From positions 124,001 through 188,000 of the forward strand of contig NZ_CP019070.1 of the NCBI RefSeq assembly GCF_001956695.1: a DNA stretch of 64,000 nucleotides, in the 5' to 3' direction. The position numbers were made by a program, and so were the translations under genes. This DNA is from Poseidonibacter parvus (GTDB lineage Bacteria; Campylobacterota; Campylobacteria; Campylobacterales; Arcobacteraceae). Shown one piece after another: positions 2,901-28,050 of the stretch; within the stretch, counting starts at the first letter, position 1, and every line of letters starts with the position of its first letter. The notes beneath the pieces were generated by a model. That model was given only the letters and a program-made list of their open reading frames with translations, searched no databases and was not told where the DNA came from.

Positions 2901-3121
2901 TTATTATTAATAAGATCTAATTATTTGTTTTCTCTAGTAAGATTAATATTTTATAAGATATAGTTTAATTAACTATTGATAAAAATTGTATATATCTTTT
3001 ATATAAGTTTTTTTAATATTAAAAGTTTGCTGTCTTAACTTATTGGCTTTGTTATTTTAGAGTCAAGTTTATTGCAAAATTTTACTACTTAATGAAGTTT
3101 ATCATTTTTAAGGAAAAAAAT
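2901..3121. other. AT-rich intergenic leader before the NRPS/PKS gene
   Basis: Very AT-rich with no convincing coding potential. It must hold the promoter of the NRPS/PKS gene, and several TATA-like strings occur at 2940-3005, but none has a clear partner -35 element, so I do not place one. The ribosome binding site AAGGA at 3110-3114 is the only firm signal. Confidence 0.5.
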
Positions 3122-11676: not shown

Positions 11677-12207
11677 ATGCCATATCTAGTTGGATCACTT
11701 ATAGCAATCGTAACTGCTATGACTATTTTATTTACAAGATATGAAGCGGATGATAGTACTATAAAAGCGGAACTTGAAAATATGAGAGTTATGTTTTCAA
11801 TGGTTGATGGTTTTGTTGAGACTTGTATTAATACAGATAGTAGTTGTTTAGATGATATTAGTTTTGAAAAGTTAAGTATTGCAGGAGTATTAATTAATAA
11901 TTCTGTTGTGTCAGGTAGTGGATTATCATCTACTGTAACTTTTCCACACAATGATGTTATTTGGCAAATAATTCCAAATAAAAATGCAAGTAATTCATAT
12001 AAATTATTAGTTGATATGAGGGCAAGTGCAGGCTTGATGAGTAAAGCTATTTTTTCTGAAAACTTCTCAAGTAGAGAATTTTGTGAAAAACCTCTTTTTG
12101 GTACAGCAGAACTAAAAGAAAATCAATTTGATGGTACAGATGATTTTGAAGATAGTGGTTCAAGCACAACAAGTGATGGATTTTTTGTCTGTACAGTATT
12201 TAAATAG
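11677..12207 (+). CDS. leaderless pilin-like protein, first gene of pilus locus
   Basis: 176 residues beginning MP and a hydrophobic helix (VGSLIAIVTAMTILF), followed by an amphipathic segment and a secreted-type C-terminal domain with four Cys. The shape matches a mature type IVb pilin: N-terminal helix anchoring a globular head. There is no basic leader, no Gly before the helix and no Glu at position 5, so a normal prepilin peptidase site is absent. The N-terminus resembles that of the next gene (MPQLIAMVIVVVGAM), so the two are probably related. Ribosome binding site AAGGA lies 6 bases before the ATG. Role as minor pilin is inference. Confidence 0.7.
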   Translation: MPYLVGSLIAIVTAMTILFTRYEADDSTIKAELENMRVMFSMVDGFVETCINTDSSCLDDISFEKLSIAGVLINNSVVSGSGLSSTVTFPHNDVIWQIIPNKNASNSYKLLVDMRASAGLMSKAIFSENFSSREFCEKPLFGTAELKENQFDGTDDFEDSGSSTTSDGFFVCTVFK

Positions 12208-12293
12208 TTTGGTGCGATTTATAGTATAAAAATAAATTGTTAAAATTTATGGTAGGTTGGTAGGAAAATTAAAATTAATAAAAAAGGATTAAA

Positions 12294-12950
12294 ATGCCAC
12301 AGTTAATAGCAATGGTTATAGTAGTAGTTGGAGCAATGATTTACATGTTTCAAACGTTTGGTGGAACAGGTGATAAGATTGAAGGTATTGCACAAAAGTC
12401 TAGTATTATGACAGAAATTAATAATATTAAAAATGGACTTCAGCTTGCAGCTAGAGATGAAGTTTTAAGAGCAACAGATAGTACAACCGCTGATAAAGTA
12501 GAAACTTTAGAAGGATTAGCTGAGTTAGAATATTTTGCTGATCAAATTAATGATGAGTTAGATGCTACAGCAACAACTGATACTGCAAATGTATATCAAG
12601 CAATTTCATTTGGTTCAGGAAATACGATGGAAATTTCACTTGTATTACCAGCTAAAGCTAATGCTACTACTCTTGCAAGACCAGGATTATTCATTGATAT
12701 TTCAAAAGGTTCATTAGCTACAAATGCAGGCTTCTTAGAAAAACAGTTAGTAGCAGATTTAGGTGCATTAGCAAGTATTGATGTAAATCAAACTTCAGCT
12801 ACATATAATACTACAATAGATGCAGCAGGTGATCTTACAACACCAGCAGCACTAGTCGCTGCTTCAGGTACTACTGCTGCAACAGATGAAGATGGTAAAT
12901 TTGTTATTTATTTTAAAGATTTACAACGTGGTGTTATTGATAATCAATAA
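12294..12950 (+). CDS. probable major pilin, leaderless type IVb-like
   Basis: 218 residues: MPQLIAMVIVVVGAM transmembrane helix, then a segment with TEINNIKNGLQ that recalls the alpha-1 helix of mature type IVb pilins such as TcpA, then an Ala/Thr-rich soluble domain without Cys. The simple composition, a strong AAAGGA ribosome binding site and two hairpins just after it fit a highly expressed structural subunit. As in the gene before, no leader peptide, no cleavage Gly and no Glu5 are present. The assignment rests on architecture and context; I cannot confirm it by alignment. Confidence 0.7.
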   Translation: MPQLIAMVIVVVGAMIYMFQTFGGTGDKIEGIAQKSSIMTEINNIKNGLQLAARDEVLRATDSTTADKVETLEGLAELEYFADQINDELDATATTDTANVYQAISFGSGNTMEISLVLPAKANATTLARPGLFIDISKGSLATNAGFLEKQLVADLGALASIDVNQTSATYNTTIDAAGDLTTPAALVAASGTTAATDEDGKFVIYFKDLQRGVIDNQ

Positions 12951-12963
12951 TAAAATAAAAATA

Positions 12964-12992
12964 AACACATTAGGCTTTTTAGCCTAAGTGTT
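12964..12992 (+). terminator. hairpin 1 after probable major pilin
   Basis: AACAC(A)TTAGGCT-TTTT-AGCCTAAGTGTT forms a 12-pair stem with one bulged A. No strong T-run follows, so it may act as a partial terminator or as a 3'-end stabiliser that raises the pilin message over the downstream genes. Confidence 0.7.
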
Positions 12993-13001
12993 ATCTAAAA
13001 C

Positions 13002-13036
13002 AAAAAATGAGTATTAATTCCTAATATTCATTTTTT
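13002..13036 (+). terminator. hairpin 2 after probable major pilin
   Basis: A 15-pair stem (one G-T pair) from A-run 13002-13007 to T-run 13031-13036 around loop ATTCC, ending in Ts. With hairpin 1 it sits in the 109-base gap between the major pilin and the next gene, and probably sets subunit ratios by partial termination. Confidence 0.65.
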
Positions 13037-13059
13037 ATTTTACAAAAGGGTAAATACAA

Positions 13060-13800
13060 ATGTTAGGAAATATATGGCTATCATCAGCACTCATTGTTAC
13101 AGCTATATATTCTGCATCGTCTTTATATAAGTCTTATTCAGATACCCAAGAAGCAAAGCAGATTCAAGAAAACTATCAAATAATATCTGATATAAAAACT
13201 CTTTTAGCAGAACAATACAATAAAAATCCAGATGAAGTAACTCGTGATGAAATTATGATGCATTTACCAGCTGGTGGAAATTGGGAAAAGGTACTTCTTT
13301 TAGATAGAAACAGTACAAGTACTCTTGAAAACGATGCATTAGTTGATGAAGATGGGAATTTTGTCTTAGACGAAAGTGAACAACTAAAACTTTTTGCTTT
13401 AAGAGCAAAATTAAGTAATTTGTCTGATTCAAATACTGAAAATACAGTTGATGGAGTACATACTTTTATTGTTGGAAAAGAAGAAAAAAATATAGTAAAT
13501 AAAAATATATCAATTGATGATAGTTTAGAAAAAGCCATTGAGTATTTAAGTACAGCTATTTTGTATTCAACTTTGACAAGTTCAGAGATTGAAGTAATAT
13601 TAGAAGATGCTATTGAAACATACACTCCACATAGTGACATATATCAAGATATGAAAACTAGTGAAACAGAAGTTATTGATGATGTTGAATTAGCAATTAG
13701 AAAAAAAGCGTTTTTTAAAAAAAGATTAGAAGAAGAGTTACTTTTAAATAAAAATGCAATGGAAACAAAACTATATTATCACTTGAAAGATTTATTATGA
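13060..13800 (+). CDS. pilin-like membrane-anchored protein
   Basis: 246 residues. One N-terminal helix (IWLSSALIVTAIYSASSLY) is followed by a long acidic, mostly helical region (EAKQIQENYQIISDIKTLL) with no other membrane segment. The helix plus amphipathic extension again resembles a mature pilin without leader, larger than its two predecessors; a minor or initiating pilin is a reasonable guess. Ribosome binding site AAGGG lies 8-9 bases upstream. The stop overlaps the start of the next gene (ATGA), so translation is probably coupled. Confidence 0.6.
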   Translation: MLGNIWLSSALIVTAIYSASSLYKSYSDTQEAKQIQENYQIISDIKTLLAEQYNKNPDEVTRDEIMMHLPAGGNWEKVLLLDRNSTSTLENDALVDEDGNFVLDESEQLKLFALRAKLSNLSDSNTENTVDGVHTFIVGKEEKNIVNKNISIDDSLEKAIEYLSTAILYSTLTSSEIEVILEDAIETYTPHSDIYQDMKTSETEVIDDVELAIRKKAFFKKRLEEELLLNKNAMETKLYYHLKDLL

Positions 13801-14543
13801 TTAAAATAATTTTAGTATTTTTAACACTTTTTATATCTCTAAATACTTTACATGCTGAAGATTCAGAATTTATACAACAACAAGAGTTATTCTTAAAGGT
13901 AAAAACGATTATTCAAGAAGAAGAGTCAATTGCTCGTGCTTATGAAAATTTTATATTAAATGAGAAGAAATTACCAACAACTTTTGCCCAACTTGTAACA
14001 GATGAGTACTTAGATAGCGGTTTTACTCTAACACCTTTTGTAGATGGAGAAACTGTATCTGTAAATGATTTTGGATTTAGAAAAGAGATAAATAACAGAC
14101 TTAAAGGTTCGTCATTAGAAGAAGATGAAAGTATACAAAGATTATATGAAAGTGATTTATTTAGAAAAAAAACATACTTTTATGATAGAGATGAAATAGG
14201 AATAAAACTTGAAGATGAGTTTGTAAATCATTTATATTTTTTAAGTTCAACTGCAGGATTTAATTTAATTAAGTGTGGTATAAGTCCTAAGAAAAAGTAT
14301 TGTTGGAATAAAGAAGATACAGATGAAAATGTTATATATATTTATCAAGAAGATGCTCAAACAAATTTACTGATGTATTACTCAGTAGATAATTTCAAAA
14401 CAGGCCCAATAATCATTACAAATGACACTTCTTTACATATAACTAGTGATGAGTTTAATTCAATTCCAAAAGGAGCTCTTTTATATGATACAGAAGCTGT
14501 AAAGTATATAAAAACTAGAGACTCTATTGAGGTGGTGAAATAA
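13797..14543 (+). CDS. periplasmic protein, pilus-locus paralogue family member 1
   Basis: 248 residues with a cleavable signal peptide ending LHA. After it comes a module shared by four proteins of this locus: an I-x-x-E-E-x-I-A-x-A helix (TIIQEEESIARAYENFIL), then LPTTFAQL and EYLDSGF. Further shared features are LYESDLFRKKT and a C-terminal KYIKT. One Cys pair (ECG..KKYCW region near 160-170) may form a disulfide. Function unknown; probably an exported pilus component or tip-complex subunit. It overlaps both neighbours by one to four bases, so it belongs to the pilus operon. Confidence 0.65.
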   Translation: MIKIILVFLTLFISLNTLHAEDSEFIQQQELFLKVKTIIQEEESIARAYENFILNEKKLPTTFAQLVTDEYLDSGFTLTPFVDGETVSVNDFGFRKEINNRLKGSSLEEDESIQRLYESDLFRKKTYFYDRDEIGIKLEDEFVNHLYFLSSTAGFNLIKCGISPKKKYCWNKEDTDENVIYIYQEDAQTNLLMYYSVDNFKTGPIIITNDTSLHITSDEFNSIPKGALLYDTEAVKYIKTRDSIEVVK

Positions 14544-15250
14544 TGAAAATATTAATAATACTTTATTTATTTTTTAATTTTCTAAATGCAAAAGATACCT
14601 TAGTAGTACAACAGCAAAATGTATTGTATGTTCAAAATCTAATAGAAGTAGAAGAAAAAATAGCAAGTAATTTTGAAAAATATTTACTAAATGAGTATTC
14701 AATACCAAGTTTAAATGATTTAATAGATGATGAATATTTAGGAAGTAATTTTACAACTACAAATAAATTCAGTTCAAGCGATATAGATTTTGTATCAGGT
14801 GATAATTTAAAAATAAAATATGCAATTACTAAAGATGTTCAATTATATGTTACTGCTTTATATGAAAGAGATTTATATAGAAATATGACTACAGTTTATA
14901 AAGATGAGAACACTCCAAGTAATTCATATGTTTCTTTTGAACTAGAATCAAAAGTTGCCGAAAATATTTTAGAGATTTTAGAAGCAGGTTCTAGTATTGC
15001 TAGTGAATGTTCTGCAACTTTAACAAATACTTACTGTATTACAAATTTAAGTGCAATAAGATGGTATGACTCAATTTCACGTTGGATTGAATATAGTAAT
15101 GAAGACTTTGAAGAAGGAAATGTGACAATTAGTACAACAGGTCTTTTGTCAAGTACAAAGTTAGATGAATTAAATGTGGGTGCCTTTGTTCTTGTAAATA
15201 ATGGCGATAAATATATAAAAACTCTTACAGATATTGCAAAGGTTGATTAA
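14543..15250 (+). CDS. periplasmic protein, pilus-locus paralogue family member 2
   Basis: 235 residues with signal peptide ending LNA. It is a tandem duplicate of the gene before by pattern: NLIEVEEKIASNFEKYLLNE, IPSLNDL, EYLGSNF, then LYERDLYRN and a terminal KYIKTLTDI. The Cys pair is at a similar place (about 155 and 165). Start ATG overlaps the previous stop (TAATG), and the next gene begins directly after its stop. Same likely role as its paralogue; the actual activity is unknown. Confidence 0.65.
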   Translation: MKILIILYLFFNFLNAKDTLVVQQQNVLYVQNLIEVEEKIASNFEKYLLNEYSIPSLNDLIDDEYLGSNFTTTNKFSSSDIDFVSGDNLKIKYAITKDVQLYVTALYERDLYRNMTTVYKDENTPSNSYVSFELESKVAENILEILEAGSSIASECSATLTNTYCITNLSAIRWYDSISRWIEYSNEDFEEGNVTISTTGLLSSTKLDELNVGAFVLVNNGDKYIKTLTDIAKVD

Positions 15251-18169
15251 ATGAAGTTTTTACTTTTACTTTTATTATTAATAAATATTAGCTTTGCAAA
15301 TAGTCAAAATATATCTAGAATGAATGCCTTAAAAAAAGTTATTCAAAAAGAAGAATATATTGCCTTAGCAATAAATAAATACATATTGCAAACAGGAACT
15401 ATTCCTAAAACAAATTTAAATAAATTAGATTGGGAAAAATTAGATCATGAAGATTACTTAGGAGAGAGTTTTAATAAAAAGAATCCTTTAACTTCTGAAG
15501 ATATAGATGTTTACTATGATACTCAAACTTACAATTTTTTTATTAGAGGTGTTGTTGTTGATATTGGAACAGAAGAAGAACCAGAATCATCTTATGATGA
15601 AGATTTAAAGTATCTTTATAACTTTTATAAAAGTAGAATATTTAGAGTAAATACAATAGCTCCACTAGATACAACAGAAGAAAAACTAAAAAAAGGCTCT
15701 CAAGTTCTTTATTCCTCAACTCAAAAAGAGATAATAAAAATACTTAGTTCAACAAGTGACAATACAATAAAACTTGATAGTCAAGAATGTGAAGTAAGTA
15801 GTTATTATTATGAATTAAAAGGAAAAGAATTAACTTACAAATACTGTAAAACGGTTGATAATCCAATTACTGTATATCAAGATTCTCCTATTTATGTTGA
15901 AGACTATACGGAATTAGAGTATATAAAAGCAAAAATCGGTGATAAGGCTTATGCCAAAAAAGATGGAACTTGGTACGAGTATTATTATCAAGGAGATACA
16001 AATCCTCCTTGGGTTGCAGTATATTTAGGTACAGCTATTAGCGCAGCTGATGAAGATGAAAATATTGAGGATTTAATACTTTCTTATATTCCTGATGCAA
16101 AAGATTTAGTTTTTAGACAAGATGGTGGATGTATGCTAGCAAATGGAGATATCTTTTGTTGGGGTAACAACAAGTATAAAAAAGCTGGGATTGAAAACTA
16201 CGGACAATTAGACACTTCTTTAAGTCCAGATTACGTTAATACTCCTGTAATGTTAAAAGTTCAAATTGATGATACAACTGAAATTAATGGTATAACTAGA
16301 TATGACAAGAATTGGTACAATAATCCATATAGAGTAAAATTTGAAAAGATGAGTATGAATAGTACTAATGTATGTGGAATATCACCAATTTTTTCATATT
16401 CAGTTGATGGGATTGCAAAAAAAATTGGAGGAGATTTATACTGTAATGGTAGTATTTCTTCTACATATTTTGAAGATATAGAAGAAGAGGTTAAAAGTAC
16501 TTCAATTTTAAAAAAGAATAGATTTTTTGCTTTAGGAAAAGATGATAAATTAAATAATGATAATGAAATATATTTGCAAGATATTGTGATGGTTGAAGAC
16601 ACAGCTGCAGTATTGTCAGAATCAGGAGATATTTATACTTTTGGACGAAATTATAAAGGCGCTCTAGGAATAGGAAGTGATGATAAGTTTATAATAGAAA
16701 ATACTCCACAGAAAATTGATACAGATATTATTTTTGAAAAAATCTTTGCCCTTCGAGACATAAAAGGATTTGGAGCTATTGATGAAGATAACTATTTTTG
16801 GATTTGGGGAGAGCGACCAAATGGTACTATTTATAATGAACCTACACTTTTAGATACCAGTAAAAGATTTGATAAAGATGCAATTTTTGTAAATACAAAT
16901 GAGTTTGTCTTAAAAGGTGTTGATAATGTCTTTTATAAAACAACAGAAGATAATTCTATTAGTTCGTTATCAGAAATTCCAAGCAGTGCAATAAGTGTAT
17001 CTATTTATGGAGATTTTTATACATATGTTAATGAAGATTTAGAGTTAAAAGGAAGTGCTAACTTACTTAAATGTATGCAATCAAATGAAATTTATGAATG
17101 TAGTGATGAGAATAAAAATATTTTTGCTTTGGCTATTGATAAACTAAATGAAAAATCAAATACAATAAATGGAAAAGATTTTGCAAACTTTTCAAATGTT
17201 TCTATTTTTAAATTAGATAGTGTAATAAAAGAAGAATTTGAAGATTTTGAAGATATTTCGAAAATAGATATTTCAGAAGAAACAGGATGGAAGGTGAAAA
17301 ACAAATCTGATGATAGTGAAATAGCACTTGATTCCTTTAGAACTTCATATCCACCAACTAATATATCTGCACAAGATGGACCTGATGATGCAGAGAGAAT
17401 CGATCCTTCTAGAATTCTAGGAATAATTAAAGTTGGAACAGAATATGTGGAAAAAACATACAATTTAGGTATTGAATATGCAAATAATGAAGTTGAAGTA
17501 GAGTTCGATTTCTTTGAGATTGATTCTTGGGATTATGAGAAATTTAATGTTGAATTAAATGGTGTTAACTTTATTGAGGACGGTTTTATTCATGATGATC
17601 ATGAGGTATTTACTGACTCGAGTGATACGGGAATAGCAGTTAAAAATTTAGTTACTGTATATACTCAAACTGGTGAAAATCGTAAATATAATGATGAAAA
17701 ATATCACTATAAATTAAGACATAAGTTAAATTCTAGTGGAGATTTAACAGTGAAATTTAGTACAAGATTATTAGTTCCGCCTGAACCTGGAGCATCTTCT
17801 GATAATGCAAATTATAATTATCTAGTTCAAGGACTAGCAGATGAATCTTGGGGAATTGATAATGTACATGTAAAAGTAAAAGAAACAAATAAAAAATTTG
17901 TGTGTGCAATGACAGGTTTTGCTAGTAACTCGCAAATGTATTGTTGGGGTAACACTGCAAGGAGTATACCTATTTTAAGCACATCTTTATATGATATGAG
18001 TAAAATAAATACTGTAAATAAATTATTTATTACTCAAGAGAATGAGAAAAAAGAAAAAATGTCTTACAGTCAATTTAATTCAATTGGTGAAAATGATTCT
18101 GAAGGGAATTTATTCCTTAAGTTTCCTACTTATATTGGAGGATTTGATTATGGTTTTTATTTTAAATAA
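15251..18169 (+). CDS. RCC1-like propeller / jelly-roll exported protein, candidate pilus adhesin (family member 3)
   Basis: 972 residues. Signal peptide (LLLLLLLINISFANS), then the locus-specific module (KKVIQKEEYIALAINKYIL), then a propeller with RCC1-type repeats: GDIFCWGNN near 300, GDIYTFGRN near 458, YFWIWGE near 515 and QMYCWGN near 895. Between the last repeats a beta-sandwich insertion at about 660-877 ends SWGIDNVHVKVK, a pattern I associate with adhesin or lectin-like jelly rolls. The C-terminus FPTYIGGFDYGF matches that of the other propeller protein of this locus. Paired Cys around the WG repeats suggest disulfides. Likely a surface or pilus-tip adhesin; PilY1-like function is inference from the propeller only. 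Confidence 0.75.
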   Translation: MKFLLLLLLLINISFANSQNISRMNALKKVIQKEEYIALAINKYILQTGTIPKTNLNKLDWEKLDHEDYLGESFNKKNPLTSEDIDVYYDTQTYNFFIRGVVVDIGTEEEPESSYDEDLKYLYNFYKSRIFRVNTIAPLDTTEEKLKKGSQVLYSSTQKEIIKILSSTSDNTIKLDSQECEVSSYYYELKGKELTYKYCKTVDNPITVYQDSPIYVEDYTELEYIKAKIGDKAYAKKDGTWYEYYYQGDTNPPWVAVYLGTAISAADEDENIEDLILSYIPDAKDLVFRQDGGCMLANGDIFCWGNNKYKKAGIENYGQLDTSLSPDYVNTPVMLKVQIDDTTEINGITRYDKNWYNNPYRVKFEKMSMNSTNVCGISPIFSYSVDGIAKKIGGDLYCNGSISSTYFEDIEEEVKSTSILKKNRFFALGKDDKLNNDNEIYLQDIVMVEDTAAVLSESGDIYTFGRNYKGALGIGSDDKFIIENTPQKIDTDIIFEKIFALRDIKGFGAIDEDNYFWIWGERPNGTIYNEPTLLDTSKRFDKDAIFVNTNEFVLKGVDNVFYKTTEDNSISSLSEIPSSAISVSIYGDFYTYVNEDLELKGSANLLKCMQSNEIYECSDENKNIFALAIDKLNEKSNTINGKDFANFSNVSIFKLDSVIKEEFEDFEDISKIDISEETGWKVKNKSDDSEIALDSFRTSYPPTNISAQDGPDDAERIDPSRILGIIKVGTEYVEKTYNLGIEYANNEVEVEFDFFEIDSWDYEKFNVELNGVNFIEDGFIHDDHEVFTDSSDTGIAVKNLVTVYTQTGENRKYNDEKYHYKLRHKLNSSGDLTVKFSTRLLVPPEPGASSDNANYNYLVQGLADESWGIDNVHVKVKETNKKFVCAMTGFASNSQMYCWGNTARSIPILSTSLYDMSKINTVNKLFITQENEKKEKMSYSQFNSIGENDSEGNLFLKFPTYIGGFDYGFYFK

Positions 18170-18178
18170 GGGAAAAGA

Positions 18179-19834
18179 ATGCATTATGCTTTAAGAAATG
18201 TTTCATTAATCACAATTGCTGTTTTCATGTTAACTGCTTGTTCAACAAAGAGTTATCACAATGAGATGACTACAGATGTTGAAAAGTTAGTTAATGAAAA
18301 AAGTTATGATAGAGTTAGAAACTCATACTCTGAAGAATTAGTATCAGAAAAAAATAAAAATAAAGAGTTTATAGATATTTTAAGTGACAAGTCACTAGGA
18401 GATGTTTTAAAAGAGTTAGAATTAATTGATGGTAATTTTTACTATTTAAAAAGTAGTGATATTTTAGTTCCTAAAAGTAGAATGAAGATTCATAATATGG
18501 CTGAATTAAATCAGTATTTAAATGCTGTACTTGATAAAGAACTTTTTATAAAAAAGAATGGTTCAATATATCTAGTTAAACTTTTAAGTACAAGTGAAAC
18601 AAAAAAACAATCAATTAAAGATATTCCTTTTAAGTTAAACGGTCAAATTTCAGTTGAAGAATTAATTAAATTAATAACTGCAGAATCTGGTTATGAAGTT
18701 TCAATTGGAAATTATATAAAAGACAAAGATGACTTCCAAAATAGTATTGTTTCTGTGAGATCTAAAAACTTAATAAATGCAATTAATTCTCTTGCTCATG
18801 CAAAAAATGTATATGTTGATATTGATTATGATAAAGAGATGATTAATATAAAAAGATATAAAGATGTTGTTGTTGAGTTAAATATTCCATTATTAAATAT
18901 TACAACTACAAATGAAACGTCATCAAGTGAGACTAGTGGTGAAAGTAAAGTTGAAAATAGTTCAGAAATTATTCTTTATGATGAGCTAGATAAAATGATG
19001 AAAAATATAATTGGTAATGATTCTATTTCTACATACCATATAGATAAAGCAAGTGGTCTTATTTTTATGAAAGCAACTAAGACTGTTGAGTCAGCAGTTA
19101 GAACAATTGCAAAAGCATATGAAGATAGTTTTGCAAGAGAAGCTACTATTGTATTTGAAAGAATTGAGCTAGTTTTAAATAAAAGTAGAGAATATGGAAT
19201 TGGTTCTGTTTCAAGAACAGCAGGTGCATCAGATTCTACTGGTGTTACAAAATCCTTAGCAACAGAAGGTGCCATCTCATTTCTTAACCAAGGTGCAACT
19301 AGATTGTTACAAGTTACAGGAACAATTGATAATCAAATAGGAAAAATTTTAAACTATAGTAAAAATGTAATGGTATTAAAAAATAATATTCCTTCTGTTC
19401 AATCAATTAGTCAAAATACAGACTATATAGAAAAAATTGAAACAACTGTTAATGATAATGTAACAACTTCAGAAGCTACTGTAAATACAATTAAAGATGG
19501 TACTTCAATAACTGCAATGGCTAAGATATCAAGAGATAAACTATTTTTAAATATTACTCCTAATATTAAAAAACTTATAAGTATTTCAGAGGCAACTGTT
19601 GGTGATTCTACTATTCAATTACCAGAATATAAAGACCAAAGTTACAATATTTCAAGAGAGATAAAAGTTGGTGAGACTTCAATTGTTGGTTCTATAATTG
19701 TTCATGATGATGCAAAAGAGTATGAAGGTATACTTCCTTTAGAAGGTTTTGCAATTGGTGGTAGTGATTCAAAATCTTATGTAAGAAGAGAAATAGTGTA
19801 TGTTGTTTCTGTAGAAAGTATTAAAGGCTTCTAA
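18179..19834 (+). CDS. type IVb pilus outer-membrane secretin, lipoprotein (BfpB/PilN-like)
   Basis: 551 residues, the normal length for BfpB- or PilN-type secretins. A lipobox LTAC places the lipidated residue at Cys21. An N-terminal region with secretin N-domain character (LSDKSLGDVLKELELIDGNF; NLINAINSLAHAKNVYVDID) precedes the secretin ring domain in the last 250 residues (RIELVLNKSREYGIG; FLNITPNIKK; GETSIVGSIIVHDD; YVVSVE). It would form the outer-membrane pore for the fibre. It lies 9 bases after the adhesin gene and 2 before the platform gene, in the same operon. Confidence 0.88.
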   Translation: MHYALRNVSLITIAVFMLTACSTKSYHNEMTTDVEKLVNEKSYDRVRNSYSEELVSEKNKNKEFIDILSDKSLGDVLKELELIDGNFYYLKSSDILVPKSRMKIHNMAELNQYLNAVLDKELFIKKNGSIYLVKLLSTSETKKQSIKDIPFKLNGQISVEELIKLITAESGYEVSIGNYIKDKDDFQNSIVSVRSKNLINAINSLAHAKNVYVDIDYDKEMINIKRYKDVVVELNIPLLNITTTNETSSSETSGESKVENSSEIILYDELDKMMKNIIGNDSISTYHIDKASGLIFMKATKTVESAVRTIAKAYEDSFAREATIVFERIELVLNKSREYGIGSVSRTAGASDSTGVTKSLATEGAISFLNQGATRLLQVTGTIDNQIGKILNYSKNVMVLKNNIPSVQSISQNTDYIEKIETTVNDNVTTSEATVNTIKDGTSITAMAKISRDKLFLNITPNIKKLISISEATVGDSTIQLPEYKDQSYNISREIKVGETSIVGSIIVHDDAKEYEGILPLEGFAIGGSDSKSYVRREIVYVVSVESIKGF

Positions 19835-19836
19835 TA

Positions 19837-20853
19837 ATGAGTATGTTTGCAGATCCATATGAACAATTCTTACTAGATTATTTAGTAACAAAACTAGAAA
19901 ATGGATCTAATACTAGAAAAGCTTTACTTTTGTATAAAGAACAAATCACAAAAGAAACAAGATTTAAAAAGAGACTTGATGCTGCTATTAAAGATATGGA
20001 AATAGGAAAGCATAAGCTTGAAGCAATTTTGCATAAAAACAAGTTTTTAAATGACTTTCAATACAGCCTAGTAGTAAATAGTACTAATACTGTTGATGGT
20101 TTAAAACTTGTACAATCTTTTGAAAAAGCAAACTCTAATTTATTACCTAAGATGATTAATCCTATATTTGTTCCATTATCAATCATTATTTTTTCTTTTT
20201 ATGGTTTGATTTTATATTTAGGAATGCTTGAAAAAGATTTAGTTGGTTTACGAAAACTAAACTCTGATGTAGAATCTTTTTTAGGAATTCCTGCATATTT
20301 TACTTATGATTTTGCATATATAGGACTTGGTATTTCTATTTTTATTACTTTATTTATACTACTTGGATACATATACACAGAAAAATATAAGCCAGCTTGG
20401 TTATATAAAGTCTTTAAAACTCAATGTTATTCAGATGGTAGATTTATGTTTAGAATTTTAAATGGTATGTTAAGTGCAGGTATTTCATTTCACAAGACAT
20501 CATTAATTCTTTCAAAAGATTACTTTAAAGTAGGACTTCGTCCATTTTTTGCAGAACTTGCTGATATTATTAATAAGAATAAAAAATTATTCTTGGTTTT
20601 TGAAAAGTATAACTTCCCACCCTTAATTACAGCAGATATCAAATTATCAGAATTAAGTAAAACAAGCTTTGCTGATGTTACAAAAGCACTATATCAAACA
20701 TGTGATACAATGTATGAAAAAAATATTGCATATATGGTTATTCAGTGGAGACTGATTTTTTGGTTAATAGCTATGCTTGTTACAGTAATAATAGGTTCAG
20801 ATATTATAAATTTAGTTATAAGTACATTTACTTTTAAAACTCTGTACCAATAA
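19837..20853 (+). CDS. pilus inner-membrane platform protein (GspF/PilC/BfpE-like)
   Basis: 338 residues. Three to four hydrophobic segments, at about 107-130 (NPIFVPLSIIIFSFYGLIL), 160-185 (YIGLGISIFITLFILLGYI) and 307-332 (FWLIAMLVTVIIGSDIINL), flank two cytoplasmic helical domains. The second holds a GspF-like core (RFMFRILNGMLSAGISFHK). This is the polytopic protein that couples the ATPase to pilin extraction from the membrane. The order secretin - platform - ATPase is normal for type IVb pilus and type II secretion loci. Confidence 0.85.
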   Translation: MSMFADPYEQFLLDYLVTKLENGSNTRKALLLYKEQITKETRFKKRLDAAIKDMEIGKHKLEAILHKNKFLNDFQYSLVVNSTNTVDGLKLVQSFEKANSNLLPKMINPIFVPLSIIIFSFYGLILYLGMLEKDLVGLRKLNSDVESFLGIPAYFTYDFAYIGLGISIFITLFILLGYIYTEKYKPAWLYKVFKTQCYSDGRFMFRILNGMLSAGISFHKTSLILSKDYFKVGLRPFFAELADIINKNKKLFLVFEKYNFPPLITADIKLSELSKTSFADVTKALYQTCDTMYEKNIAYMVIQWRLIFWLIAMLVTVIIGSDIINLVISTFTFKTLYQ

Positions 20854-20862
20854 GAAGAAAAA

Positions 20863-22521
20863 ATGATAAAAAATTTAATTAAAAAATACAAATCAAAAAA
20901 ACTTTCACTTTTAAATAAAAAGAGTAAAAAAATTAATATAAAAGAATATATTAAAGAAAAAAAGAGTTTAGTTACTGAATATGTGAAAAAAGAAGATGAG
21001 AAAGATGCTGTATTATCAACACTAATTGAAGATGTAATAAAAGAAAAGTTTAATTTTGCAGGTGGTTATGGAGATTTAATTGCAAACGAATCTAAGTATG
21101 CAGAGTTTGTTAGAGGATTAGGTTATGAATATTATGCTTCATATAATGAATTATCAAAATTATATCAAGATACATCATTTCAATTAGATGAGAGAAAATT
21201 AGAATTTTGTACAACTATGTATATTATTACACTTGAAGATAAGAAAACTAAAAATAAAGTTCTAGGAATTAGAGATGTCGTAAATTTAGATTTTGATGTT
21301 TTAAGTAAATTCTATTTTACAAAAATTGTAGTTTTAGGTGAGGGTGTATTATCTTCAGTATTTGGAGAAGACAGAGAGATTATATTTGGTTCTGGTGCAG
21401 ATACTGATAATGATGATGAAATTAATAAATATTTTGACAAGATGATGGGTCAAGCCATTTTACTTGGTGCTTCTGATATACATATTCAAAAGACAAATAG
21501 ATATGCTTCTTTATGGTTTAGAATTGATGGTATTAAAGTTGATATGGGAACAATGCCAATTGCAATTGCAAAAACAATTAAAAGAAGACTTGTTACTATG
21601 GCTGATCAAGAAGATTCTGATTTTGAATCAATTAATGGTGTTATAAACTATGATTATGGAAAGAAAAATATTAAATTCAGACTTGGTCTTATTAACTCTA
21701 AATTAAACTTTTCATTAGTTATGAGAATGATTGGTGGAAAAGGTGTTGTTTCTCATAATTTAAGGGGTCTTAATTATCCAGATGAAACAGTTGATATTCT
21801 TGATAACTTAACAAAATACTCAAATGGTATGATTCTAATTACTGGACAAGTTGGTTCTGGTAAAACTCACTTAATGTATGCACTTTTACAACAACTTGCA
21901 AAACAGCAGCAATATGTAATTACTATTGAAGATCCTGTTGAGTATGTTGATGAATCTTTCTTCCAAATTGACTTATCAGAGTTTGCAAGTGCTAGTGAAG
22001 AGTTTAAATATGGTTACCCTGAAGCAGTAGTTGATATTCTAAGACAAGATTCAAATATTATTCTAATTGGGGAAACAAGAGAACCAGAAACTGCATCACA
22101 ACTTGTAAATGCATCAAACTTAGGACAGTTAGTATTCTCTACTATGCATACGAACTCAGCACCTGCTACAGTATCAAGAATGACAAGTTCATTAGGTATT
22201 AATGAAGGGGATGTTGTAGATAACTTAAGAGGTATTGTATCTCAAAGATTAGTACGTAAACTTTGTGATTATTGTAAGATTGAAGATGGTGAAGGTGGTT
22301 ATAAAAAAGTTGGTTGTGAAGAGTGTAATAGTAGTGGATTTAAAGATAGGGTTCCTATTGCTGAGGTTATTAGATTCAAATTAGGATTTGGTGGAGATTT
22401 TGAGAATCCAGCTGAATATATGACAGTTGAAAAAGCATGTATGGCACAATATCATGCTGGTCTCATTACTAAAGCTGATGCAACTGCAATAATCAAAGGG
22501 GAGGAAGTATGGTACGATTAG
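20863..22521 (+). CDS. pilus assembly ATPase (GspE/PilB/BfpD-like)
   Basis: 552 residues. Catalytic features: Walker A ITGQVGSGKT at about 326-335; an Asp box DPVEYVDE near 357; Walker B region ILIGETREPE near 400; His box STMHTNS near 427; and a zinc-binding CxxC...CxxC (CDYC near 468, CEEC near 485). The central ASDIHIQ motif before the nucleotide site is also typical. It would hexamerise at the cytoplasmic face and power assembly. Only one such ATPase is present; there is no separate retraction ATPase in the locus, as in the Tcp system. It overlaps the next gene by 13 bases. Confidence 0.93.
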   Translation: MIKNLIKKYKSKKLSLLNKKSKKINIKEYIKEKKSLVTEYVKKEDEKDAVLSTLIEDVIKEKFNFAGGYGDLIANESKYAEFVRGLGYEYYASYNELSKLYQDTSFQLDERKLEFCTTMYIITLEDKKTKNKVLGIRDVVNLDFDVLSKFYFTKIVVLGEGVLSSVFGEDREIIFGSGADTDNDDEINKYFDKMMGQAILLGASDIHIQKTNRYASLWFRIDGIKVDMGTMPIAIAKTIKRRLVTMADQEDSDFESINGVINYDYGKKNIKFRLGLINSKLNFSLVMRMIGGKGVVSHNLRGLNYPDETVDILDNLTKYSNGMILITGQVGSGKTHLMYALLQQLAKQQQYVITIEDPVEYVDESFFQIDLSEFASASEEFKYGYPEAVVDILRQDSNIILIGETREPETASQLVNASNLGQLVFSTMHTNSAPATVSRMTSSLGINEGDVVDNLRGIVSQRLVRKLCDYCKIEDGEGGYKKVGCEECNSSGFKDRVPIAEVIRFKLGFGGDFENPAEYMTVEKACMAQYHAGLITKADATAIIKGEEVWYD

Positions 22522-23264
22522 TAGTAACAGATTTCCAAACTAAAGAAGACAATGAAACTTTCTATCTTAATGATGAATTTGATATTTCTCAGAAAATGTT
22601 CACTTATGATTCTTTTAAAAAACATAGTGTATATTTATCAAAGTATGAGGTTACAAATACAATATACTCTTTGAATTTATTATCAAGAAAATATTTAAAT
22701 AAAAACCAATTATTAGTACATATTACAGATAGTGAATATTTTATATTGTTTAATCATAAAACTGTATATTCCGCAAAGATAAATCAAAACTTTATTACTG
22801 ATGATATTATAAAATCAATTCTTATTACAAAACATATTGCGATGCTTTCAAGTGGTGGTAGTATAAAAAAATATTACTATGTGATTAGTTCAAAATATAA
22901 AAGTGCAGTTGAAAATATTTTAAAGCAGAATACAAAAAATGAAAAAAATGAGGAGATAGCTTATAGTTTAGGTAATGTTGAAGAACTAGTTAAACCTTTA
23001 AATGAGCTAGATACTTTTAAGTCACATTCTGCAAAAAATATTTTTGTTTTATTCTTTGTAATATTAATGGCATGGGTTATGTTTTTTGGTTTAGAGCAAT
23101 TAACAAAAAAATATATTTATAAAGAGCCTTTAGAAAAACTAAAAAGAGAAATAAAGATTGAAAAAAGATTAATACAAAGACAAAAGATTTTATTAAATAG
23201 AACTAATAAAAAATATAAAGAATTAACTGATTGTATTACTCCTATTGAGGTGAAGAATGATTAG
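22509..23264 (+). CDS. bitopic inner-membrane pilus protein (GspL/BfpC-like position)
   Basis: 251 residues: a cytoplasmic domain (1-170), one membrane helix at about 178-195 (FVLFFVILMAWVMFFG) and a charged coiled-coil tail outside. The cytoplasmic part has a beta-rich pattern that could be the actin-like fold of BfpC or GspL, but I see no firm motif. A strong GGGGAGG ribosome binding site lies inside the ATPase gene end, and the 13-base overlap suggests coupled translation. Together with the next protein it probably forms the assembly platform linking ATPase to periplasm. Confidence 0.65.
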   Translation: MVRLVVTDFQTKEDNETFYLNDEFDISQKMFTYDSFKKHSVYLSKYEVTNTIYSLNLLSRKYLNKNQLLVHITDSEYFILFNHKTVYSAKINQNFITDDIIKSILITKHIAMLSSGGSIKKYYYVISSKYKSAVENILKQNTKNEKNEEIAYSLGNVEELVKPLNELDTFKSHSAKNIFVLFFVILMAWVMFFGLEQLTKKYIYKEPLEKLKREIKIEKRLIQRQKILLNRTNKKYKELTDCITPIEVKND

Positions 23265-23751
23265 TATTAATAGTAAAAGATTTAAACTAATTATAAAATA
23301 TGGTTTGATTATATTTGTTGTTTATCTTATTGGGTTTGTCTTCTTTAAGTTAGCAAGTTTTTTTAAACTAGCATATGAAAAAGACCAGTTAACAACTGAG
23401 CTTCAAAGTAAAAAACAAGAAACACTTAGTTTAAAAAGAAAAGTTGTAAATGTAAAAGCTAAAATGGTAGAAGTTGAATCTAAATATATTAAAAAAGAGG
23501 AAATTGATACTAAAATAAAAGACATATATAAAAGAATGTCAGTATTAGATTATAATTTAAAATTTTTAGATTCAAAAAAAATGTGTATTGATAACTATAT
23601 AATAGTTACACAATTAACAGCAAGAAGTGAAAAAGGATTAAGAGCAGGTGAGGGAATTTTATCTTATTTAGGTGAGATGAAAAAGAGTGAAAATAATAAT
23701 ACTATTTATTTTGTAAATTATATATCAAAGCCAAAGGATATTAAAAAATGA
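23257..23751 (+). CDS. small bitopic coiled-coil protein (PilO/GspM-like position)
   Basis: 164 residues: short basic N-terminus, one membrane helix (LIIFVVYLIGFVFFKL, about 14-30), then a long Lys/Glu heptad region (LTTELQSKKQETLSLKRK) and a small periplasmic domain. This is the architecture of PilO- or GspM-type alignment-complex proteins. It overlaps the gene before by 8 bases and the gene after by 4. Sequence alone does not prove homology; the call rests on shape and position. Confidence 0.6.
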   Translation: MISINSKRFKLIIKYGLIIFVVYLIGFVFFKLASFFKLAYEKDQLTTELQSKKQETLSLKRKVVNVKAKMVEVESKYIKKEEIDTKIKDIYKRMSVLDYNLKFLDSKKMCIDNYIIVTQLTARSEKGLRAGEGILSYLGEMKKSENNNTIYFVNYISKPKDIKK

Positions 23752-25934
23752 TTTTTATTAAATTTTTTATTTTATTTTTACTATCATCATCTTTGTATTC
23801 AAATGAGATGTACTTTGATAATATATCTTTATCTAAAATAAAAAAAGTAATAAAAAAAGAAGAGCAAATTGCAAAAGCATATAAAACTTATGTTCTTAAA
23901 AATGCTTTAAAACCAACTTCTATTTCTAGTTTGGCAACTTATTTACCAGATGGTTTTAGTTATTCAAATTTATTTGGACAATCAATTTCTTTAGATGACA
24001 CGAACACTTATATCATAAGTTTAATTCCTTCAAATGTAAAATCATCACTATATGATAAGTACTATTCAAATGAAAATAGAGTTTATTCAAAAGCACCACT
24101 TAGTAAAGAAAATCATAATGTTTCAATTGTATTTTCTTCTAAAGAAGAGTATATTTTTAATAACTTGAGTTTAATTACTACAGATGATACATTGATTAAG
24201 AATAAATATTTATTAGATGATAAGGGAGTTCTTCATTGGTATGATGATAATGGAGATATATTATACTCTTTTGATGAAAAAATTATAGTTTATCCAACAG
24301 CTAATATGATTGATAATGGAAGTATTTCTTCAGAATTTAAAAATATTTTAGATAATGCTAATACATCTTTATCTCCAGGTCAACAGATATTTAATATGGA
24401 AGATGGCATAGCTCAAGAATATATTAATATTGGTGGAGACATAGGTATTATTAAACTTGGTGATACTACAAGAGATATTGGAGAGACAATTATCCAATTT
24501 ACTAGACGTGCTGGTGGAATGATAGTAAATGGAGATATTTATACTTGGGGAAATAATGCAAATCAAATTGTAGGATTAGGTACAAATAATTTTACAGGTT
24601 CTTCAGATAGTTATTATAAGTATCCAGTTATTACAGGTCTTATAAGAGCAAAAGCAAAAACATATAATAGTGATATTGATGATAAGAACTACTTCTCATC
24701 CCCTTTGAGACCAAAATTTGTAGATTTTTTCTCTACAGTTTATCATAGTACTTGTGGCGTTACAGTAGAAGGTGCTATATATTGTGGAGGAGCAAAAGGA
24801 AGTGCTGTTTCTTTTGGTAATAATTTTACTCACATAGTAAATTCAGATGGAAGCCTTGTTAATAGTACAGATCCAGAAATGTTATACAGAAGTAGATATT
24901 TTGATGGAAGTACTACAGATAAAAGTGCAAAAAAAATGTTTGCAAATAATCAATTATGGCTTATTCTATCTCAAGATGGCGATATTTATAGATGGGGTTA
25001 TGATCATAGTTCTGGATTTTCAGGTAATGGAAGTACTCAATTTAATTATTATAATAGAGATACAAATAAAGATCCTGAAAAAATAAGTGTTAGTAACAAT
25101 GGTACAAGTGTAAACTTTGATGACATAACATATCTTTTAACAATAGGATATAGAAAAATGGGTGCCTTATCACAAGATGGTGATATTTATATTTGGGGTA
25201 TAGAACCAAAAATTGCAGATGGAAGTTGTGAAGTTACATGGGAAGGTACTACTATGAACTTATGTGCCCCACTAAAAGTTGAAACAGATATAATTTTTAA
25301 AAGTATTAGTGGTGGATTAGAAGCTTTTTTAGCAGTATCAACTGACGATAAATTTTATAAAATATATCAACCTAAAAACAAAAAACCTATTATTTTATCT
25401 ATTGAAGATGAGATAAAAAGTTATTCAGACTATGTTGCTGAAGATGATATTGAACTATTATCAGTAGACTTTTCTAGTAAAACACCAATTTCTGAAGCAA
25501 CATGGAATACAGGAATAGTTTGGGTGAATAGTAAAAATGAACTTAAAGGTGATTATTTTACAAGTGAAAATGAAAATGATGATTTTTTTAAAGATGCCAT
25601 CTCAAAAATAAAATGGAAAAAGATTAAAGTAATTCAAGATGACAATGGTATGTGTGGAATTGATATCTACAATCAAATGTATTGTTGGGGTAAAATGTCA
25701 TTTTATAGAACAGTTGAAACATCATATATTGATTTAATGGGAAATACTTTTATGCTACCAGTATTTAACACAAATCTATATGATTTAGAAAAAGACTTTT
25801 TACTTGCAGAAGGTGGATATGATGGATATCTAACAAAGATGACATCAGGGGATTGGAATCCATCTAACAATGATTTTTTTATAAAATACCCAACATATAT
25901 AGGTGGATTTAATTATGAGTTTATATTTAAGTAA
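23748..25934 (+). CDS. RCC1-like propeller exported protein (family member 4)
   Basis: 728 residues. Signal peptide (FILFLLSSSLYSNE), then the locus module (KKVIKKEEQIAKAYKTYVL), then propeller repeats: GDIYTWGNN near 261, GAIYCGGA near 343, GDIYRWGYD near 410, GDIYIWGIE near 478 and QMYCWGK near 644. The C-terminus YPTYIGGFNYEF is nearly the same as in the 972-residue paralogue upstream, which has an extra jelly roll. Having two such proteins suggests alternative or paired tip proteins. It sits between the alignment-complex-like gene and the SH3 gene, inside the operon. Confidence 0.75.
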   Translation: MIFIKFFILFLLSSSLYSNEMYFDNISLSKIKKVIKKEEQIAKAYKTYVLKNALKPTSISSLATYLPDGFSYSNLFGQSISLDDTNTYIISLIPSNVKSSLYDKYYSNENRVYSKAPLSKENHNVSIVFSSKEEYIFNNLSLITTDDTLIKNKYLLDDKGVLHWYDDNGDILYSFDEKIIVYPTANMIDNGSISSEFKNILDNANTSLSPGQQIFNMEDGIAQEYINIGGDIGIIKLGDTTRDIGETIIQFTRRAGGMIVNGDIYTWGNNANQIVGLGTNNFTGSSDSYYKYPVITGLIRAKAKTYNSDIDDKNYFSSPLRPKFVDFFSTVYHSTCGVTVEGAIYCGGAKGSAVSFGNNFTHIVNSDGSLVNSTDPEMLYRSRYFDGSTTDKSAKKMFANNQLWLILSQDGDIYRWGYDHSSGFSGNGSTQFNYYNRDTNKDPEKISVSNNGTSVNFDDITYLLTIGYRKMGALSQDGDIYIWGIEPKIADGSCEVTWEGTTMNLCAPLKVETDIIFKSISGGLEAFLAVSTDDKFYKIYQPKNKKPIILSIEDEIKSYSDYVAEDDIELLSVDFSSKTPISEATWNTGIVWVNSKNELKGDYFTSENENDDFFKDAISKIKWKKIKVIQDDNGMCGIDIYNQMYCWGKMSFYRTVETSYIDLMGNTFMLPVFNTNLYDLEKDFLLAEGGYDGYLTKMTSGDWNPSNNDFFIKYPTYIGGFNYEFIFK

Positions 25935-25953
25935 AAGTTTTAAAAGGAAAAAA

Positions 25954-26967
25954 ATGAAGAGAATTAGTTTTATTATAGTATCTATTTTTGCAGTTATTAA
26001 TTTATATGCACAAGAAGGTGAGAAAGAGGCTATAAAGAATATTGATAAGTTAGATGTTTTAGACCAACAATCAAAAAATTTCTTTAAAAGTATTACAGGA
26101 CTTGAAAAAGATTATCTTGAAGAACAAATTGATTCAATTCAAAATAAAACAAATAATCCAAATAACATTAAGAATACAAATAAAAATACTCAAGGTATAT
26201 ATGTAGAAAAACCTGAAGTATCTCAAGAAGATTATGAAAAAAATGTATTTAAACACCAAAACGAAATGGCTAGATTAACTAGTGATTTTACAAGAACAAA
26301 TAAACTAAAAGATATTAAGATAAAAAGTATGTATTCTTTCAATGGAAAAGATTATGTGATTTTAAAAATAGACAGCAAAAAAAGTGCTGGAGCTAATAGT
26401 GAATTAAGTTCAAATATTGAAGGAAGATTTGTAAGAGGTGATAATATCTTAGGTCATAAAATTATAGATATTGACGTTAGAACAAAAACAGTAAAGTTAT
26501 ATAAAAAAGTTGATGAGGAGTATGGATATTTAATTTATTTAAATAATTATGGAACATCAGTTAGTGATTTAAAAAAAGAGCCTAAAGCAAAAATTATAAA
26601 AGCTGAAAAAGAAGAAAAAGCAAAGAAAAAAGAAAGTACAAAGATACGAGAGAAAAAAGTTTATAGCATAAAAGAATCTTTTGCAAAGATAAAAAACAAA
26701 GAGCTTAAAAAAGATTTATCTGAATGTTTATATACAGTTGATATACAGAATCTAAATGTTAGAAATACAAATGATTTAAATGCAACAATTTTAAGAGTTT
26801 TAAAAATAAATGACCAATTTACTATACAAGCAAAAAAAGGTAATTGGCTACATTTAGATACTATTTATAAGAAAAAATCTGGGGATGTTATGGTTGTTGA
26901 GAATGACTCAAATTGGGTTAAACTTATAGATGCTAATTTATTAGTAGATGATGAAAATTGTCAATAA
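25954..26967 (+). CDS. periplasmic SH3-like domain protein of pilus locus
   Basis: 337 residues. Start set at 25954 by AAGGA at 25944-25948 and by the signal peptide MKRISFIIVSIFAVINLYAQ; an earlier in-frame ATG at 25903 would overlap the preceding gene. The middle is charged and low in complexity (KAEKEEKAKKKES). A beta-rich stretch near 120-190 (VILKIDSKK, GDNILGHKIIDIDV) resembles the PilP/GspC type of pilot domain. The last 75 residues are an SH3b-like domain (NLNVRNTND, NDQFTIQAKKGNWLHL). It may link secretin to peptidoglycan or to the inner-membrane complex. Role is inferred. Confidence 0.65.
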   Translation: MKRISFIIVSIFAVINLYAQEGEKEAIKNIDKLDVLDQQSKNFFKSITGLEKDYLEEQIDSIQNKTNNPNNIKNTNKNTQGIYVEKPEVSQEDYEKNVFKHQNEMARLTSDFTRTNKLKDIKIKSMYSFNGKDYVILKIDSKKSAGANSELSSNIEGRFVRGDNILGHKIIDIDVRTKTVKLYKKVDEEYGYLIYLNNYGTSVSDLKKEPKAKIIKAEKEEKAKKKESTKIREKKVYSIKESFAKIKNKELKKDLSECLYTVDIQNLNVRNTNDLNATILRVLKINDQFTIQAKKGNWLHLDTIYKKKSGDVMVVENDSNWVKLIDANLLVDDENCQ

Positions 26968-26976
26968 GGCATAGCT

Positions 26977-28050
26977 TTGAGCAATAATATAAATGAATGT
27001 AAGGTAAAAATCAATCATCATATTAAAAATATTTCTGAAGAGATAAAACCATTTACTGATATATTCAATAAAATATTTGTATTCGATGAAATATTAATAA
27101 GTGAAAATGGTGGTAAAACAAAGTTAAATCGACAAATATTAAATGACCAACATGATTTAATGCAAAATAAAATTTTACTAATTAACTCTGAATTAGATCA
27201 ATCTTTAGATGTAGTTAAAACATATTTAGAAGTATTATTAATAGAATGTAATAAATCTAGTCAAATTGAAACGGTTAATTTAATATATGATGATAAGAAC
27301 TTCATAGATTTATTAGAAATGGATTTAGAGACTAAAGTTATTCCTCGTGCATCTAAAAAGAAGCTTTTACAAGATGTTCAGAATCTATCAAATATAAAAA
27401 ACAAGATATTTAATTTAAAATATCTTGTAACAATGTTTGATACAACAATAGTTTATAAATATCTAAATAAACTAGGAGTTGAGGATTTAATTAATAGTAC
27501 ATTTATTTTTGAGCTTATTGATACTTTTGCTTTACATTTTGAACAATTAAAGAAGTTTGAATATGTGATTAATAACTTTGATAAAGAAATTGATGATGTA
27601 AAAGATTTTTCTGTTCTTAACTATTTACTTGAATTACATAAAAGAAGATCTGATAATTATATTTATGCAAATTTTAGATATAAAATATCTTTAGATTATA
27701 ACATAGACTTAAACTTAAGAAAAAAAGTTAAAATGAATATTCTCTATCTTGAAAATATTATTTCATCATTTATCGAACAATCATGTATGGATTTAGTAAA
27801 AAAAGAGATGAAAAAAGGAAAAATTAATAAATTAATTGAAGTAAATATTTTTAAACATAAGAATAAACTTCAATTAGTAGTTAAAAATAATGGCTTTGAA
27901 GTAAAAAATATTCATACTTTATTTCTTTCTGATACTGAAAATAAATATATAATTGAAGCAAAAAACCTAGCAGGTATGCTAGGTGCAGCTATTGAAATAA
28001 CTGCTCTTGAAGATGAAGGAATGGCATACTCTTGCTCATTTAAAATCTAA
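26977..28050 (+). CDS. cytoplasmic protein with degenerate GHKL ATPase-like end, TTG start
   Basis: 357 residues. The only in-frame start near the end of the previous gene is TTG at 26977, with AAGG about 8 bases upstream. No signal peptide or membrane segment. The N-terminal two thirds is helical, like a dimerisation or Hpt-type bundle. The last 100 residues follow a histidine-kinase ATPase plan (SSFIEQ; LQLVVKNNGFEVKN; AKNLAGMLGAAIEITALEDEG), but the N and G boxes are degenerate and no phosphorylatable HExx motif is obvious. Possibly an anti-sigma or partner-switch regulator of the locus. Low certainty on function, good certainty that it is a gene. Confidence 0.6.
   Translation: MSNNINECKVKINHHIKNISEEIKPFTDIFNKIFVFDEILISENGGKTKLNRQILNDQHDLMQNKILLINSELDQSLDVVKTYLEVLLIECNKSSQIETVNLIYDDKNFIDLLEMDLETKVIPRASKKKLLQDVQNLSNIKNKIFNLKYLVTMFDTTIVYKYLNKLGVEDLINSTFIFELIDTFALHFEQLKKFEYVINNFDKEIDDVKDFSVLNYLLELHKRRSDNYIYANFRYKISLDYNIDLNLRKKVKMNILYLENIISSFIEQSCMDLVKKEMKKGKINKLIEVNIFKHKNKLQLVVKNNGFEVKNIHTLFLSDTENKYIIEAKNLAGMLGAAIEITALEDEGMAYSCSFKI

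Follow-up and report, generated by a model that had tools for sequence, protein, structure and literature searches.

Gene content and organization of the locus

The DNA stretch analyzed here (the window; 64,000 nucleotides [nt], positions 124,001 to 188,000 of contig NZ_CP019070.1 of Poseidonibacter parvus) carries 14 co-oriented open reading frames (ORFs) on one strand at 11677-28050, which were named A to N. This locus probably encodes a type IV filament assembly machine of the Campylobacterota in which the prepilin leader was lost from the pilins. A first-pass annotation of the same DNA had described a compact locus of twelve genes with tight overlaps. A close run of co-oriented genes was confirmed at these coordinates, and the ORF list gives 14 genes. 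The junctions from C to N range from a 13 nt overlap to a 19 nt gap, and larger intergenic gaps are found only 3' of the pilin-like genes (86 nt between A and B and 109 nt between B and C). The start of M was placed at ATG 25954 rather than at GTG 25903 because its homologs begin there in the alignment. The features, with lengths in amino acids (aa), are as follows.

A, 11677..12207, + strand: 176 aa pilin-like protein, putatively leaderless; uncharged hydrophobic N-terminus (Met-Pro-Tyr); C-terminal Cys pair
B, 12294..12950, + strand: 218 aa pilin-like protein, putatively leaderless; candidate major pilin; N-terminus Met-Pro-Gln
Two stem-loops between B and C, 12964..13042, + strand: terminator- or processing-like; the second covaries
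C, 13060..13800, + strand: 246 aa membrane-anchored protein; uncharged hydrophobic N-terminus, leaderless; minor-subunit candidate
D, 13797..14543, + strand: 248 aa secreted protein consisting of a shared module
E, 14543..15250, + strand: 235 aa secreted protein consisting of the same module
F, 15251..18169, + strand: 972 aa RCC1 propeller protein with an inserted region; tip or adhesin candidate
G, 18179..19834, + strand: 551 aa secretin lipoprotein (MshL match, lipobox, tree)
H, 19837..20853, + strand: 338 aa inner-membrane platform protein (weak T2SSF match, profile searches, tree)
I, 20863..22521, + strand: 552 aa extension ATPase (Walker A, GE.R, and tetracysteine motifs)
J, 22509..23264, + strand: 251 aa bitopic protein; GspL/BfpC-like by position and topology only
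K, 23257..23751, + strand: 164 aa bitopic coiled-coil protein; PilO-like by position and topology
L, 23748..25934, + strand: shared module (residues 1-240) followed by an RCC1-type propeller (245-728); tip or adhesin candidate
M, 25954..26967, + strand: secreted protein with a bacterial SH3-like C-terminus; middle part PilP/GspC-like by eye only
N, 26977..28050, + strand: 357 aa conserved cytoplasmic-looking protein

Probable absence of a prepilin leader in A and B

Removal of the leader by a prepilin peptidase is regarded as universal in type IV filament biogenesis, and detection programs rely on it. For the start-site comparison, the loci of 24 other carriers served as the comparison set (related loci are labeled L followed by a number; G052 is one of the genomes, and G000 is that of P. 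parvus itself), with 23 rows available for each of A and B. In none of the 23 B rows does an ATG, GTG, or TTG codon lie within the 2-19 codons that separate the start from the in-frame stop upstream. For A, 20 of the 23 rows lack an upstream in-frame start, and the other three have a TTG at 2, 9, and 11 codons (L054, L044, and L039, respectively). All 46 genes have a Shine-Dalgarno-like motif immediately 5' of the start, and the residue at position -1 is never Gly or Ala. An in-frame stop lies two codons 5' of the start in the B gene of L047 and in the A genes of L035, L043, and L050, such that no leader is possible. A class III signal peptide, with its leader ending in Gly or Ala, is absent from A and B, and so is the long leader of type IVb pilins. 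Moreover, Lys and Arg do not occur at positions 1-6 of A (22 of 22 rows) or B (23 of 23 rows; one row is cut by a contig end), and they are present in this region of D, E, F, and L. Glu5 is missing from both alignments. Residue 2 is Pro in every B row and Pro, Ala, or Gly in every A row, which is consistent with methionine removal. The N_methyl model (PF07963) has no match at the locus (135.7-152.1 kb), and five prepilins elsewhere in the genome exceed its cutoff. These features indicate that A and B are very likely leaderless, as the first-pass annotation had proposed. This would contradict the published rule that prepilins "invariably" carry a class III signal (PMC10191384).

It is highly improbable that the locus is an ordinary mannose-sensitive hemagglutinin (MSHA) or type IVb pilus for which the pilin start codons were misjudged. 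This explanation draws on the weak match of the secretin to MshL and on the presence of MSH systems in Epsilon-proteobacteria, as reported in PMC6668835. However, the MshL match amounts to 35 of 250 bits, and an MshM-like gene is absent among the 14 genes. Misjudged start codons are refuted by the four genes with a stop two codons upstream, barring unusual codons combined with read-through.

Assembly machinery

The product of gene I matches the Pfam model T2SSE (PF00437) at 5.2e-65, in agreement with the earlier assignment, and is a GspE/PilB-type extension ATPase of the Zn type. Among its orthologs, the Walker A and GE.R motifs occur in 25 of 25 rows and the tetracysteine motif in 24 of 25. 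Another full-length T2SSE ATPase, the third in the P. parvus genome, has 454 aa (G000:C1 2,210,312). The platform assignment of H is weak by Pfam (T2SSF at 0.01, below the cutoff) and clear by profile: the H family profile retrieves other members of this family as well as the canonical sister loci described below, and one of the sister platforms matches T2SSF above the cutoff (4.2e-6). The secretin assignment of G is borne out by the NCBIfam model MshL (7.6e-9, with 35 bits against a cutoff of 250 bits) and not by the Pfam secretin model PF00263, for which G gave no match. In addition, G is homologous to the secretin of L077 (140-149 bits), which itself matches TIGR02520 at 1.6e-13, below the cutoff. 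A lipobox conforming to the strict pattern is found in 24 of the 27 secretins tested, including G of the window, and in the other three, a Cys lies close to residue 20 within a different context.

The remaining components are less clearly defined. A DivIC-like coil is matched by six of nine K family members, below the cutoff. Because single-sequence hhalign comparisons among the J and K proteins from the canonical loci yielded no match, both proteins were named by position and topology alone; the GspL-like and PilO-like proteins of the first-pass annotation hold in these respects and are not backed by profiles. M has a match to SH3_3 (2.3e-4, below the cutoff) and to an SH3 structure in PDB (6e-5). 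A GHKL-like regulator had been suggested for N, but none of 20 N homologs matches any GHKL model of Pfam at E<=0.1. The genome has one prepilin peptidase gene, located outside the locus. Judged by its encoded Zn-type extension ATPase, platform protein, lipoprotein secretin, and proteins at the GspL and PilO positions, the locus is a type IV filament machine.

Relationship to known systems

Platform searches led to three loci, namely L076 (in another family), L077, and L094 (the second locus of G052), in which the same kind of secretin lies beside pilins with ordinary leaders (KAISMVEV, KKGITLIEI, and KKGFSLVEL); the pilins of L077 and L076 match N_methyl below the cutoff. These canonical loci share with the window locus the lipoprotein secretin, the platform, and the secretin-pilin-platform-J-K-ATPase layout, and L077 also has a secreted module protein. 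The pilins differ: those of the three loci have Gly/Ala-terminated leaders and Glu5, whereas those of the window locus have neither. Furthermore, no RCC1 protein was noticed in the stretches of these loci that were read, whereas the window locus has F and L. The genome G052 contains both the canonical-leader locus L094 and a leaderless locus.

Secretins of leaderless loci score 102-157 bits against those of canonical loci and at most 36 bits against those of the type II secretion system (T2SS), HofC, and IncI. The corresponding values for the platform are 37-70 and at most 30 bits. The tree references were T2SS, HofB/HofC, and IncI (R64-type) rows, with Bfp and Tcp left out. In the secretin tree, leaderless and canonical rows are joined at 100/97, and T2SS secretins are set apart at 100/99. 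The joint between leaderless and canonical rows is weak in the platform tree (68/63) and strong in the ATPase tree (100/99). When the IncI row was included in the ATPase tree, a grouping of leaderless rows with T2SS/HofB apart from canonical rows was rejected (p-AU 0.0036), with a caveat for long branches; when it was removed, three clades resulted that are unrooted and uninformative on the sister group. The IncI row falls with T2SS on a very long branch in the ATPase tree, and its place is unsure in the other trees. Based on the similarity of secretin and platform and on these phylogenies, the locus appears to be a distinct subclass that belongs with the Campylobacterota loci having canonical prepilins, away from T2SS and HofB/HofC and not with the tested IncI rows. 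The new subclass proposed earlier is thus supported as a distinct lineage, but its main novelty is the lost prepilin leader rather than the accessory genes.

The type IVb pili Bfp, Tcp, and Cof have a clustered operon, a lipoprotein secretin, one extension ATPase, and a tip adhesin. The window locus shares the first three features with these pili and with the R64/IncI thin pilus, and it encodes tip adhesin candidates. These features agree with the type IVb-like label of the first-pass annotation, but the long-leader pilin is absent. Unlike type IVb pili, the window locus has no prepilin leader and no peptidase gene, and its secretin and platform score at background against the IncI rows. With T2SS (that of the same genome and Gsp of E. 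coli K-12), it shares the ATPase family, the secretin, the platform, and a GspL-like bitopic protein; however, it has the leaderless A and B in place of GspG-K and no leader-bearing GspG-type pseudopilins. Searches of an open-licence library listed no paper describing this locus or type IV pilins that lack a leader.

Evidence for a probable pilin identity of A and B

A and B are homologs according to hhalign (95%, E 8.6e-9). In the alignment of A (22 rows), C136 and C172 are invariant, and many pilin heads likewise carry a C-terminal Cys pair. The AlphaFold2 (AF2) model of B, with a predicted local distance difference test (pLDDT) score of 82, has a helix spanning residues 2-54 and an alpha/beta head. 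When 150 chains were aligned to this model with VIA-align, the top two were type IV pilins, and the next, an unrelated chain, had a Z score of 3.4. The two pilins, 4pe2 (Z 7.0, 122 residues aligned, 3.7 Å) and 3sok (Z 4.5, 115 residues aligned, 4.1 Å, with model residues 3-211 on chain residues 1-129), score within the range where common arrangements occur. Searches of Pfam, NCBIfam, and PDB sequences with B, and of Pfam and NCBIfam with A, gave nothing usable. Based on sequence and model, A and B are likely pilins. Profile comparison of C with A, B, D, E, and L gave no significant match.

As an alternative, A and B may be membrane accessory proteins, with the true leader-bearing pilins encoded elsewhere and processed by PilD. 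In support of this, the genome has an isolated canonical prepilin outside the T2SS cluster, at 880,091, and a weaker one at 1,279,675, and B lacks a significant sequence match to known pilins. The positions of the genes do not favor this explanation: A and B adjoin the secretin in L054, and they occupy the place that the canonical pilin has in L094, L076, and L077. The 53-residue spine helix of the B model and the Cys pair of A are also at odds with an accessory role, and even L055, a distant and rearranged leaderless locus, still has A and B. This alternative is considered doubtful. A separate observation concerns L054, which encodes a second A-like leaderless protein of 373 aa (L054:14518-15639, - strand). 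The gene lies where the locus ends, and a propeller gene was not found there. This protein apparently has two copies of an extra domain of ~90 residues at its C-terminus, which gives it the look of a modular pilin.

Shared module and RCC1 propellers

Profile comparisons (E 1e-17 to 1e-40) show that D, E, and the N-terminal part of L, up to residue 240, are homologous and represent one secreted module, in line with the repeated periplasmic modules noted earlier. The N-terminus of F is D/E/L-like by eye and by tblastn. F matches Pfam RCC1 above the cutoff (6.7e-8), and the AF2 model of L (pLDDT 79) aligns over 320 residues with the RCC1-type protein UVR8 (VIA Z 19.9), such that the propeller proteins of the first-pass annotation are supported for F by sequence and for L by model. 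A tblastn match to F was found in 20 of 20 loci, and the match in L042 falls on its L gene because the contig is cut. An adhesive or ligand-binding tip that includes F and L may be inferred from these results. Propellers are not unique to this locus, since PilX2 of the saccharibacterium TM7x is reported to be a pilin with a seven-bladed RCC1 propeller and no predicted PilD signal (PMC12206443). The major pilins of TM7x keep their PilD signals according to the same source, whereas A and B of the window have none.

These secreted proteins also bear on the function of the machine. It is possible, but unlikely, that the locus is a secretion machine in which a short pseudopilus made of A and B drives F and L, together with D and E, out through the secretin, similar to some type IVb colonisation-factor systems. 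The single extension ATPase, with no retraction ATPase in the locus, would fit this function, as would the ordinary signal peptides seen by eye in F, L, D, E, and M and the presence of two large propeller proteins in the same gene run. However, the canonical locus L077 likewise encodes the D/E/L module (E 3.6e-5 in comparison with L), which suits filament subunits better than cargo, and L054 retains A, B, and the machine although no propeller gene was found there.

Conservation across Arcobacteraceae

An ATPase search of 104 genomes of the family gave matches in 66 at E<=1e-40. An ortholog, defined by a score of 480 bits or more, is present in 25 genomes including that of P. parvus, and the remaining matches are to a T2SS-type paralog with ~34% identity. 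Among the 24 related loci, the order from A to N is identical in 20, which indicates more than a chance run of genes; within these 20, A of L050 was assigned from a match of only 26 bits and D of L049 from frame reading. Contig ends truncate L042 and L052. L054 is reduced, with A, B, G, H, I, J, K, M, and a short N present and C, D, E, F, and L not found. The distant L055 is rearranged and retains G, H, I, A, B, a C-like protein, and an RCC1 protein. Carriers with species names include Poseidonibacter lekithochrous and Arcobacter vandammei. Platform profile searches of the order (398 genomes) and of the class (397 genomes) found 15 genomes each, 14 of them in Arcobacteraceae, and a contig scan with B that reached outside the class found 10 loci.

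Possible signs of decay were seen in two loci. The platform gene of L050 is split by an insertion of ~1.3 kb (L050:9061-11393, - strand), whose long frame is IS256-type transposase-like by eye; because of this interruption, the L050 system is probably dead. The ATPase gene of L053 (L053:10844-12482, + strand) is in two frames with a break near residue 420, which may reflect decay or a sequencing error. In addition, the metagenome contig L082, which carries the locus, is titled Helicobacter pylori but has Arcobacteraceae-like content and is probably a mislabeled record.

Stem-loops between B and C

The two stem-loops between B and C are present in most loci. In an alignment of the second one from 18 loci (L043, L047, L048, and L052 left out), 93.1% of cells are paired, and both sides have changed in 10 of 16 pairs. 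This level was reached by none of 500 shuffles and by no slid version. This covarying hairpin is consistent with a terminator or processing site that separates the pilin mRNA. At the gathering threshold, no Rfam family is matched anywhere in the window. Sigma-70-like sites occur at the level of shuffled sequence, and thus no promoter is claimed.

Proposed mechanism of filament assembly

In the filament machine proposed here, A and B would be translated at mature length, starting with Met-Pro, Met-Ala, or Met-Gly, and would insert with the N-terminus inside through a hydrophobic stretch of ~20 residues. Judging from residue 2, methionine aminopeptidase rather than prepilin peptidase may expose the mature N-terminus, which would mostly be proline. 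An N-terminal proline is a secondary amine, as is the N-methyl-Phe found in ordinary pilins. Homology, gene order, and topology suggest that the ATPase I drives the platform H to extract A and B subunits into the filament and that J, K, and M couple this extraction to the lipoprotein secretin G. C, D, E, F, and L may form a starting or tip complex, in which the RCC1 propellers would bind a target surface or ligand. B, with strong hairpins at its 3' side, is the likely major pilin and would be expressed above the downstream genes. The fibre may thus be made by an undescribed shortcut. The more specific proposal, that such a peptidase-free filament was derived from a peptidase-dependent Campylobacterota pilus, with mature-length pilins, proline exposed by methionine aminopeptidase, and Glu5 dispensed with, has about an even chance of being correct.

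Several points weigh against a leaderless filament. The filament is a prediction from genes: leader absence, conservation, and family relationships are all read from sequence, and the propeller fold comes from a model. At position 2, small residues are also present in J and H (23 of 23 and 19 of 24 rows, respectively). The genome holds both a prepilin peptidase and a T2SS that provides its clients, and the peptidase occurs in 101 of the 104 family genomes, such that co-occurrence is uninformative on independence. In pairwise comparison, the ATPase scores higher with GspE (152-195 bits) than with its counterparts in the canonical loci (90-132 bits). Long branches and only one type IVb reference limit the ATPase tree. 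For the B model, Foldseek gave no match at E<=0.001 (best E 1.3), hhalign of B with canonical pilins was not significant (E 0.068, probability 0.5%), and the VIA scores of 7.0 and 4.5 fall in the range of common arrangements mentioned above. If the proposed reading is true, a conserved lineage without leader and Glu5 would provide a test of what both features are for, and genome surveys would miss such filaments. G052, with leader-bearing and leaderless sister loci, would offer a natural comparison.

Flanking genes

To the left of the locus, the window contains a gene for a hybrid synthetase-type protein of 2366 aa (3092-10192; peptide/polyketide-like by reading), followed by a 4'-phosphopantetheinyl transferase gene at 10211-10885 (ACPS, 1.3e-16). 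The left neighbors (the 4'-phosphopantetheinyl transferase gene and a small ORF) are not kept beside 20 related loci that were compared for their flanks. The right neighbor, a purT-like ATP-grasp gene, is kept in 13 of these 20 loci, in one of them as a contig-end fragment.

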